DNA of 42,764 nt. It comes from Phycisphaerales bacterium (GTDB lineage Bacteria; Planctomycetota; Phycisphaerae; Phycisphaerales; UBA1924). Shown piece after piece: positions 15,780 through 18,261 of the stretch. Position 1 is the first letter of the stretch; each line of letters begins with the position of its first letter. The stretch is from NCBI GenBank assembly GCA_029260435.1, contig JAJDDG010000076.1:1-42764 (forward strand), given 5' to 3'. The notes beneath the pieces are model-generated. The model ran no database searches. It saw nothing but the letters and a program-made list of their open reading frames with translations, and was not told the DNA's origin. A program made the position numbers and the translations under genes.

Positions 15780-15860
15780 TGTCTCCCCCCCCACCAACAC
15801 CCACACACTCATCACCACACCCCGTCCCCCTTGCGAATCGACCCATCACCCGGAGCAACA

Positions 15861-17279
15861 ATGGCGAGCGAAACCGAGCAAGACCTGCGGGCGCAGGTGC
15901 TGATCGTTGAAGACGAAGCCGAGCACGCGGACGTCATGGCCGACGCCCTGCGCAAACCCGGGCACGTCTGCACGATCGTGCACGACGTCCCCAGCGCCAT
16001 CGAGGAACTCAAGGGCGGGGCGTTCGATATCGTTGTCACCGACCTGCGCATGCCCAACTCGGGCGGGGCGAACAGCGTGGACGCAGAGGGCGCAAACGCG
16101 GGGTTCGTGATCCTCAACGAGGCGGCGTCGCTCCAGCCCGACGCCCAGACGATCATGGTCACGGCGCACGGCGATGTCGCCACCGCGCGGACCGCGTTCA
16201 AGCACGGGGCATTCGATTTCATCGAAAAGCCGCTCGATCTTGCTCTGTTCAGGTCACTCATCGATCGGGCGGCGGAGAAGGTGCTGCTCAGACACCACGC
16301 CGGCGAATTCTCCGAGCTGGTGCAGCACGACGGGTTCGAGGGGATCATCGCGGGCTCCGAACCGATGCGCCGGATCCTGGAGACCGTCCGCAAGGTCGCG
16401 GCCTCCAATCTCTCGGTGCTGATCACGGGCGAGTCGGGCACGGGCAAGGAACTGATCGCTGAGGCGATCCACAGAAACTCGCTCCGCAAATCCAAGAAGT
16501 TCGTCACGTTCAACTGCGCCGGGCAGAGCGAGTCGCTCATTGAAGATCAGCTTTTCGGGCACGTCCGCGGCGCGTTCACCGGTGCCGAGAAGGACCGGGA
16601 GGGCGTCTTTGAGTACGCCGACGGCGGCACGCTCTTCCTCGACGAGGTGGGCGACATGCCGCTGGCGATGCAGCCCAAGCTCCTCCGCGCCCTCGAATCG
16701 GGCGAGGTGATCCGCCTCGGGTCGAACGACCCGCGCAAGACCGACGTCCGGTTCGTCACCGCGACAAACAAAGACCTGCCCGAAGCGATCAAGGCGGGGC
16801 AGTTCCGTGAAGACCTGTACTTCCGCATCAAGGGCACGCAGGTCCACCTGCCGGCGCTGCGCGAGCGCCGAGAAGATATTCCCCGCATCGTGCGCCACGC
16901 CGTCGCCAGGTTCGCCGGAGAGTTGAACGCCCCCGTCCCTGATATTTCCGACGCCGCGATGATGCGCCTGAGTTCGTTCGGGTGGCCCGGCAACGTCCGC
17001 CAGCTCTTGAATGTCGTGCAGAACATGGTCGTCATCGCGGGCGGCGAACCGCTGGACGTCCGCCATATCCCCGACGATATCGCCTCGGGCGAGGACAACC
17101 CGGACGCCCCGCTCGCATCGGGCGGCTCGCTCGCCGGCACCTCCCTTGAGCAACTCGAAAAACGCGCCATCCGCGAGACGCTCCGCCTCACGGGCGGCAA
17201 CCGCGAGCAGACCGCGAACCTCCTGGGCATCGGCGAGCGCACGCTCTACCGCAAGCTCAAGGAATACGGATTGAGGTGA
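15861..17279 (+). CDS. NtrC-family sigma-54-dependent response regulator
   Basis: 472 residues: receiver domain (about 10-135), AAA+ domain (about 165-390) and Fis-type helix-turn-helix (about 430-472). The phosphoacceptor Asp is in IVVTDLRMP, the switch Thr in MVTAHGD and the Lys in FIEKPLD. The AAA+ domain has Walker A GESGTGKE, the sigma-54 contact loop RGAFTGAEKD and Walker B GGTLFLDEVGDMP. The C-terminal NREQTANLLGIGERTLYRKL is the DNA-binding helix-turn-helix. The receiver carries an unusual Gly/Asn/Ala-rich insertion of about 15 residues right after DLRMP. The start is ATG 15861 with CGGAG upstream. No histidine kinase is adjacent. Confidence 0.96.
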   Translation: MASETEQDLRAQVLIVEDEAEHADVMADALRKPGHVCTIVHDVPSAIEELKGGAFDIVVTDLRMPNSGGANSVDAEGANAGFVILNEAASLQPDAQTIMVTAHGDVATARTAFKHGAFDFIEKPLDLALFRSLIDRAAEKVLLRHHAGEFSELVQHDGFEGIIAGSEPMRRILETVRKVAASNLSVLITGESGTGKELIAEAIHRNSLRKSKKFVTFNCAGQSESLIEDQLFGHVRGAFTGAEKDREGVFEYADGGTLFLDEVGDMPLAMQPKLLRALESGEVIRLGSNDPRKTDVRFVTATNKDLPEAIKAGQFREDLYFRIKGTQVHLPALRERREDIPRIVRHAVARFAGELNAPVPDISDAAMMRLSSFGWPGNVRQLLNVVQNMVVIAGGEPLDVRHIPDDIASGEDNPDAPLASGGSLAGTSLEQLEKRAIRETLRLTGGNREQTANLLGIGERTLYRKLKEYGLR

Positions 17280-17280
17280 T

Positions 17281-17363
17281 GCCCCCTCTCCCTTTCCGGG
17301 GAGAGGTCGAAGATCCGCCGAAGGCGGGGTGGTCGAACGAAGTGAGACCGGGTGAGGGTCTTT
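17281..17363. repeat. Left inverted repeat of the DUF559 cassette
   Basis: It contains two internal hairpins, CCTCTCCC/GGGGAGAGG and CCGCC-GAA-GGCGG, followed by GACCGGGTGAGGG. The stop codon of the DUF559 gene (17362-17364) overlaps its inner end. Confidence 0.75.
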
Positions 17364-17715
17364 ATTCTTCCATTCTTGAGCGAGCAACTCGCAGAATTGT
17401 CCGCAGAACAGCGCCCCGAGATGACATGAACTCGGAAACGGTGAACCGGATCACTTTGACTCCCCACCACTGTTCGATGTACGCGTCGCGAGTCCCGTCC
17501 GCTTCCCGCTTCGGACCATGATGTGAACCGTCCAACTCCACAACGAGTCTTGCCTTGGGGCAGTAGAAGTCAGTGACGTAAGGCCCGAACGCTTCCTGGC
17601 GTCGAAACTTCAGGGCACCGAGTTGTCGATCACGCAAAGCCCGCCACATGACTCGCTCGGGCGGTGTGGAATCCTGCCTGAGTCGGCGAGGCAGGTTGCG
17701 TGATGGTTCGCCCAT
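17362..17715 (-). CDS. DUF559 endonuclease-domain protein
   Basis: 117 residues from ATG 17715. The sequence PPERVMWRALRDRQLG, KFRRQEAFGPYVTDFYCPKARLVVELDGSHH and IRFTVSEFMS is the standard DUF559 layout, a small restriction-endonuclease-like (PD-(D/E)XK/Vsr-related) fold; the Asp of VTDFYC and Glu of VVELDG are the expected metal-site residues. Biochemical function is not established for the family. A longer start (17775) would fall inside the right inverted repeat and upstream of TATGCT, so it is disfavoured. The gene is intact and sits alone between inverted repeats. Confidence 0.9.
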   Translation of the reverse strand: MGEPSRNLPRRLRQDSTPPERVMWRALRDRQLGALKFRRQEAFGPYVTDFYCPKARLVVELDGSHHGPKREADGTRDAYIEQWWGVKVIRFTVSEFMSSRGAVLRTILRVARSRMEE

Positions 17716-17721
17716 AACTGG

Positions 17722-17727
17722 AGCATA
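17722..17727 (-). promoter_or_regulatory. -10-like TATGCT for the DUF559 gene
   Basis: TATGCT (minus strand) ends 6 nt before ATG 17715 and lies between the right inverted repeat and the gene, so the cassette appears to carry its own promoter. Confidence 0.5.
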
Positions 17728-17739
17728 CCGGAAGAAAGA

Positions 17740-17801
17740 AAAATCCCTCACCCGGTCCCGACAAGTCGGGACCACCCTCTCCCTGGAAAGGGAGAGGGGG
17801 C
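17740..17801. repeat. Right inverted repeat of the DUF559 cassette
   Basis: It contains two perfect palindromes: GGTCCCGAC/GTCGGGACC (10 bp around AA) and CCCTCTCCCT/AGGGAGAGGG. Its outer 17 bases are the exact inverse of the start of the left repeat; it lacks the middle section of the left repeat. Confidence 0.75.
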
Positions 17802-17809
17802 AAGAGAAG

Positions 17810-17904
17810 ACATGCTCGTGCTGCGCGTGAGCATGCCACCCAAGAATAAGGAAGGAAAAGAGAGCACTGACCTTCCCTTCGGGGAGGTCAGTGGCACGGG
17901 GAGG
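17810..17904 (+). repeat. REP-like palindromic repeat unit, copy 1
   Basis: Hairpin A (CATGCTC 811-817 with GAGCATG 829-835 of 17.8 kb) is followed by CCACCCAAG, a purine-rich spacer and hairpin B, a 13-bp stem (17865-17877 with 17881-17893) with one T-G wobble, then TGGCACGGGG. The same order and flanks recur on the minus strand at 40536-40661. On the minus strand hairpin B is followed by TTTT, so it could also terminate the STAS operon. Confidence 0.6.
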
Positions 17905-17919
17905 TTGATCGAGGGTGCG

Positions 17920-18261
17920 TCAACTCCCGATCTGGAGCCCGGCGATCGCTGTCGCCTTGTCCGGCGCGAAGTCGAAGACTTTGTCCAGCCCGGTCAGCAG
18001 CATGATCGACCAGACGGCGTCGCTCACCGAGCACAGACGCATGTTCTTGTCCCGCTCGGCGATCGCCTTGCGGATCTTCAGCAGCTGCGCGATGTTCGAG
18101 GAGTTGAGGTATGTCACCTCCGCCATGTCGAGCACGACATCCCGCTTCTTCTGCGGCTCGTCGCTCGTGAGCTTCTGGTGGAGTTCGTTCATCTCCTCGG
18201 AGAGCGCGGGCTCGTCCGCGAGGTCACACACGACAATATTTTCCGACCAGTCCATGGGCAT
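17920..18261 (-). CDS. STAS-domain protein (anti-sigma factor antagonist-like)
   Basis: 113 residues, the size of a single STAS domain. DVVLDMAEVTYLNSSNIAQLLKIRKA contains the conserved Asp and the Ser-Ser pair where anti-anti-sigma factors are phosphorylated, and MRLCSVSDAVWSIMLLTGLDKVFDF matches the C-terminal helix and strand. Such proteins release a sigma factor or another target when dephosphorylated by a PP2C enzyme; one PP2C gene lies at 3550 but linkage is not shown. It follows the GT39-type gene by 30 nt on the same strand, with GGAG upstream. No anti-sigma kinase is adjacent. Confidence 0.9.
   Translation of the reverse strand: MPMDWSENIVVCDLADEPALSEEMNELHQKLTSDEPQKKRDVVLDMAEVTYLNSSNIAQLLKIRKAIAERDKNMRLCSVSDAVWSIMLLTGLDKVFDFAPDKATAIAGLQIGS

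Follow-up and report, generated by a model that had tools for sequence, protein, structure and literature searches.

Intrastrand triplex motifs (TM, also TMECO or PIT motifs) are reportedly associated with the names of Hoyne and Maher beside that of Holder and colleagues. It was Holder et al. (2015) who described the motif under this term, demonstrated triplex formation in vitro for copies from Escherichia coli, listed 23 copies in that organism, and tied them to genome instability, the TM loci being unstable; no mobility gene was found with them (PMC4666352). In the REP/RAYT systems (REPtrons) and in TIRYT elements, a gene is framed by inverted palindromic repeats of which solo copies occur genome-wide, and REP/RAYT repeats sometimes lie inside genes (PMC3733652). 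Rickettsia palindromic elements (RPE) are palindromic repeats placed in frame within protein genes (PMC3733652).

The locus presented here lies in a window of 42,764 nucleotides, the whole stretch of DNA that was analyzed, from a Phycisphaerales bacterium (contig JAJDDG010000076.1). As in REP/RAYT systems, an enzyme gene is framed by a dispersed inverted repeat whose number tracks the enzyme. Unlike in those systems, the enzyme is a DUF559 protein and not a HUH/Y1 transposase, the GTAG tag is absent from both window arms, and in the same order Y1 and DUF559 families carry different repeats. Only DUF559 lies between the repeats, with no Y1/HUH transposase, and the genome has no PF01797 match. 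The window unit would work like REP/RAYT and is not a member of it, being without a Y1/HUH enzyme and without GTAG. Units of this kind share with RPE the in-frame location of palindromic repeats within protein genes and differ in sequence, RPE being CGTC-tagged and not described with an enzyme gene between copies.

Organization of the DUF559 Unit

The 521-bp stretch at 17281-17801 holds a single gene, encoding DUF559 on the minus strand, within inverted copies of a palindromic repeat. Its parts and neighbors are:

15831..17279, plus strand: sigma-54 response regulator, neighbor outside the unit that sets its left border
17281..17358, plus strand: left repeat (triplex motif, long-linker form), with copies at ~33-40 further genome places
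17285-17306, plus strand: hairpin of the left repeat
17310-17349, plus strand: second palindromic stretch of the left repeat
17350-17358, plus strand: tail of the left repeat, GGGTGAGGG, pointing at the DUF559 gene
17362..17715, minus strand: DUF559 (Vsr/EDxHD-type PD-(D/E)XK) nuclease gene, 117 aa from ATG, likely coding sequence
17745..17801, minus strand: right repeat, inverted
17745-17753, minus strand: tail of the right repeat
17754-17773, minus strand: second hairpin of the right repeat
17775-17801, minus strand: main hairpin of the right repeat, CCCTCTCCC..GGGAGAGGGGGC
17920..18261, minus strand: STAS domain gene, neighbor outside the unit

The DUF559 reading frame stays open to a GTG at 17775, and the protein matches the PF04480 profile (E=3e-29, 101 bits against a curated cut-off of 20.6). 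Each arm is built of a C-rich/G-rich hairpin of the CCCTCTCCC..GGGAGAGGG type, a linker, which in the window unit is long and itself palindromic, and the gene-facing tail GGGTGAGGG. An earlier sequence-only reading had described the flanks as inverted copies of each other, in a unit starting one base past the stop of an unrelated gene. Both points hold: the outer arms (17280-17306 and 17776-17802) match over 27 nt at 96%, the inner arms (17346-17363 and 17740-17757) over 18 nt at 89%, with GACCGGGTGAGGG at 17346-17358 and its complement at 17745-17757, and the stop of the sigma-54 regulator ends at 17279. Two hairpins had also been proposed for each flank. DNA folding recovered both on the right (z=-5.0), whereas the left flank reached only z=-1.4 and its fold is therefore not clearly above chance. 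The promoter-like element attributed to the gene was not recovered, with 0 sigma-70-like sites. Terminal inverted repeats, as in a MITE or insertion sequence, are present at the unit ends, and inspection by eye found no target duplication there.

Three other identities were considered and rejected. PADLOC gave weak partial matches only, to DpdF and mREase_II, which does not make the unit a defense system; PLSDB contained no similar unit on plasmids, which removes plasmid carriage; and Rfam gave no match to a known ncRNA at E 0.1. Just outside the unit, two further palindromes, at 17863-17898 and 17810-17843, are of the CACTGACC..GGTCAGTGGCACGGG and ACATGCTCGTG..GAGCATGCCACCC type. Both recur beside copies of the repeat elsewhere in the genome (e.g., L012-L014 and L033) and represent other dispersed families.

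The Repeat Is Dispersed and Has the Layout of a Triplex Motif

The sequence-only reading had missed that the flanks belong to a dispersed family of ~40 copies in the genome. By sequence search, on which the genome-wide counts are based, the repeat occurs at ~40 places, mostly without DUF559, and the flanks can be rejected as private ends of one element. The genome has 2 DUF559 genes, both bracketed by inverted repeats; the second (L009) is enclosed in identical manner, tails inward. The L009 unit lies between direct copies of a ~120-150 bp host stretch (1228-1372 and 1907-2028), as if insertion or repair had duplicated local DNA. On contig C142, the repeat is nested inside a larger element with ends TAGAGC...GCTCTA, present in three near-identical copies (L002, L003, and L004), a MITE-like composite.

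The tail of the repeat is a mirror image of the 3' stem arm. Among asymmetric arms, and bearing in mind that arms of one locus are not independent in these statistics, the mirror match beats the direct match 71 to 18; where the tail departs from the mirror, 53 of the 65 changed A positions are A to T, and G is kept at 609 of 637. A mirror tail that keeps G and exchanges A for T is the code of an antiparallel purine triplex. The repeats have the mirror purine third strand and the G·G-C and A/T·A-T triads that define a TM. The linker, for which the TM definition allows 1-6 nt, measures 2-3 nt in 105 of 164 arms and is long and itself palindromic in the window unit. Judged by its sequence, the repeat is one already described, the intrastrand triplex motif (TM/PIT). 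The arms share its sequence and layout, e.g., CCCTCTCCC-loop-GGGAGAGGG-CCGG-GGTGAGGG, and its dispersed occurrence, and inverted pairs in E. coli have their tails inward in 4 of 5 cases. Unlike our units, the motifs of Holder et al. (2015) are described with neither a link to DUF559 nor insertion inside genes (PMC4666352). When applied to the two arms of DUF559 units, the rule by which type A pairs with type B in E. coli fails. A canonical G-quadruplex pattern fits 94 of 209 arms, which offers an alternative fold to the triplex.

The sequence-only reading knew of no description of such a unit. The repeat itself is already known as a triplex motif; of the DUF559-TM link we found no earlier report in the open-access literature (subscription journals lay outside the search).

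DUF559 Genes Are Bracketed by Inverted Repeats Across Taxa

Two sets of DUF559 genes were assembled, 59 from the order and, picked by protein similarity only, 80 from across GTDB. Bracketing was scored by comparing the 300-bp upstream flank with the reverse complement of the downstream flank, and the threshold was set at the 99% quantile for 1916 stretches of equal size taken from these loci. In the order, 57 of 59 genes were bracketed, two of the scores not deriving from the motif (L051, a masked stretch, and L071, a long unrelated inverted repeat), compared with ~1% of random positions. The DUF559 gene of L071 sits within ~240-bp near-perfect inverted repeats unlike the usual motif. Bracketing in unrelated taxa, which had also been envisaged, was found for 55 of 79 genes from many phyla. 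The hairpin itself was present on both sides of 42/57 genes in the order and 36/74 across phyla. Genes of the same size encoding PIN/VapC proteins were never bracketed (0/30); these and the within-locus controls led us to reject chance bracketing. Outside the order, ~30% of DUF559 genes have no detectable inverted repeats, which counts against the mechanism proposed below. The DUF559-TM association itself is, in our judgment, virtually certain.

On the DUF559 tree, repeat type required 24 changes compared with 38.6 after shuffling in the order, and 12 compared with 16.6 in the many-phyla set. Such a distribution would fit enzyme-repeat specificity, with host relatedness left in the comparison.

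As a positive control, 25 of 28 Y1_Tnp genes (RAYT/TIRYT) were bracketed by inverted repeats, and in 0 of 28 was the DUF559-unit hairpin on both sides. The inverted repeats of these Y1 genes (L313-L342) are of a different sequence type, so that two repeat-enzyme systems coexist in the order's genomes. These data bear on whether the TM ends serve a different recombinase, e.g., a RAYT/Y1 transposase, with DUF559 as its cargo. Y1 genes are common in the order and come with their own inverted repeats, which gives the idea some basis. Yet the window's genome and others, G007 and G053 among them, have DUF559 and no Y1 match, TM hairpins do not frame Y1 genes, and across phyla it is DUF559 that is found as the cargo. 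We consider such a passenger role very improbable, and reject RAYT as the mover for the window's genome, both for the missing Y1 match and for the different repeat type. The earlier suggestion that the unit is moved in trans by another transposase finds no support: no Y1/RAYT was detected in the genome, and the repeats at the order's Y1 genes are of another kind.

Repeat Number Follows the Enzyme

Repeat hairpins were counted in 201 genomes of the order, 40 with strong DUF559 and 161 without. The median was 53 per genome with DUF559 and 1 without (Mann-Whitney p=7e-17), whereas a reversed-pattern control gave medians of 2 and 1, respectively. The difference persists at the level of families and has the same direction in 9 of 11 mixed genera, the within-genus sign test on its own giving p=0.065. 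Across 50 genomes of many phyla that have DUF559, the hairpin median was 39.5 compared with 3 for the reversed control pattern. At least 20 hairpins were counted in 24 of the 161 genomes without detected DUF559, which counts against the mechanism; repeats may be kept in some DUF559-less genomes as non-autonomous copies would be. The correlation could also run in the opposite direction.

The DUF559 Protein Is a Predicted Nuclease

Acidic and His residues of nuclease type show little or no variation in DUF559, and on these conserved residues we base its prediction as a nuclease. The AlphaFold (AF2) model of the window protein has a pLDDT of 85; its nearest PDB entries are 3hrl, a DUF559 protein from Neisseria gonorrhoeae, and 3r3p, the catalytic domain of the homing endonuclease I-Bth0305I, followed by PvuRts1I-type nucleases and then, weakly, Vsr. 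Fold and family are common to the window protein, I-Bth0305I, and the DUF559 nucleases (3hrl, YcjD, and VsrA). Unlike the present unit, Vsr-like/EDxHD nucleases have no known tie to dispersed repeats, and the unit lies outside any intron or intein.

The sole experimentally studied DUF559 that we found is Caulobacter VsrA, which has a DUF559 domain, causes an SOS response in a methyltransferase mutant, and was read as a mismatch-repair enzyme (PMC12907096). That reading counts against the TM mechanism and suits another one, in which TMs are disruptive folds resolved by DUF559 as a host repair nuclease, kept where TMs are common and sitting among them for regulation or by chance. The SOS response seen when the methyltransferase is missing (PMC12907096) and the instability of TM loci in E. 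coli (PMC4666352) agree with such a maintenance role, which leaves unexplained the inverted-repeat framing in 57/59 cases and the insertion inside genes. We regard it as improbable.

Host Sites Are Polymorphic

In the window's family, the HMG-CoA lyase gene carries a DUF559 unit in frame within one loop, between WVPQLGD and FSALVPN, in 8 of 77 genes. The others have a solo repeat in a few cases and a plain 20-residue loop in most. On the host tree, these states require 4 changes, at least 3 of them forced by well-supported branches, and the DUF559s of sister hosts are not mutual nearest relatives (e.g., L046 versus L057/L061). A unit is also inserted in frame in an Eco57I-type methylase (L036). 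In the hppD-hmgA gap of the Stenotrophomonas family, 4 genomes have the unit, 1 a solo motif, 1 a gene-less inverted pair, and 6 of the readable ones are empty. Within the genus of G007, the unit is absent at its place in six relatives, several of which hold an unrelated gene there. The sequence-only reading had counted as evidence against itself flanks that are generic repeats together with a gene found at this place in every relative. Generic they are, and mostly without DUF559, but presence of the gene at a given place varies among relatives, as seen at host sites other than the window's.

A homing element would be expected to enter a defined site that is empty in relatives. Two host sites vary between empty, solo, and filled, which would be compatible with this, with borders approximate here and cleavage presumed. 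DUF559 might be a homing parasite only: TMs would spread otherwise, e.g., by replication slippage at the fold, and DUF559 would cut them and insert its own gene via recombination between TM copies. Gene-less solo repeats at the HMG-CoA lyase and hppD sites that elsewhere hold units, the closest matches of the DUF559 model (a DUF559 structure and the domain of a homing endonuclease), and the presence of repeats in some DUF559-less genomes all agree with this. Moreover, both unit arms are whole repeats, and therefore any TM offers homology. Harder to accommodate is the median of 1 repeat without the enzyme, also seen in most genera, which is easier to understand if the enzyme spreads the repeats. 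We consider homing alone rather unlikely. Between spreading of the repeats and mere homing into them, the number correlation favors spreading.

E. coli ycjD Lies Next to a Triplex Motif

The DUF559 gene annotated in E. coli K-12, ycjD (1351407-1351760), is separated by 168 bp from TM no. 9 (TMECO 9, 1351204-1351239), a nearness with a chance of ~0.3%, and a degenerate TM copy overlaps its 3' end. At its 5' end, a near-perfect 43-bp palindrome of other sequence (L343 5759-5801; MG1655 1351758-1351800) occupies the place expected for a second TM arm. The region, in the fabI-sapF gap (L343-L348), is polymorphic, with ycjD present in 3362 of 5426 complete E. coli genomes. The ycjD-less sites were rejected as clean empty sites, for a TetR/RND efflux cluster is found there in three checked strains.

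TMs and small foreign genes could simply accumulate in the same kind of variable intergenic region without being functionally linked. The variability of TM loci and the replacement of ycjD by an efflux gene cluster would agree with this; however, the order's VapC-type small mobile genes, at 0/30, do not share the framing, and the arms of DUF559 units are inverted with tails facing the gene. Hitchhiking in such hot spots seems to us hardly credible.

Discussion

The layout of the unit, its generality, the correlation between enzyme and repeat number, and the polymorphism of host sites are the observations from which a mechanism can be proposed. The unit would be a two-ended element, with a DUF559 gene between inverted TMs, each made of a hairpin, a short linker, and a mirror-image purine tail that faces the gene. 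We infer that DUF559 most likely recognizes the TM, either as hairpin/triplex fold or as duplex, and would then nick or cut there. Repair from other TM copies would carry the unit, and probably solo TMs too, to new places, including in-frame positions inside genes, where insertions would survive because the frames required are open through the repeat arms. To our knowledge, PD-(D/E)XK nucleases do not join DNA, and therefore an extra repair step must be assumed.

The best reading is a REP/RAYT-like partnership in which an unrelated Vsr/EDxHD-type nuclease acts on TM ends, and we hold it with evenly balanced confidence. The sequence-only reading had already proposed an action of DUF559 on the hairpins at its own ends, analogous to that of RAYT on REPs. 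This proposal survives, partly supported, because bracketing is near-universal in the order and common across phyla, and because repeat number goes with the enzyme and orthologous sites differ among genomes; the action itself would still be a prediction from genome comparison.

Triplex-motif repeats have been known for years from more than 260 genomes, E. coli included, and linked to genome instability. The association described here suggests that DUF559 is the long-missing agent spreading or maintaining them. It gives a testable role both to TM repeats and to DUF559, a widespread family of unknown function, and a parallel to REP/RAYT with an unrelated enzyme. It also explains the proline/glycine-rich "PLPEGEG" peptides and the whole nuclease domains found inside ordinary enzymes. 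Since laboratory E. coli already has both partners, ycjD and TMs, the idea can be tested there. The chances seem to us about equal that DUF559s are dedicated TM enzymes, which would make them a second REP/RAYT-like class of repeat-spreading systems, distributed over many phyla and perhaps surviving as a relic in E. coli.
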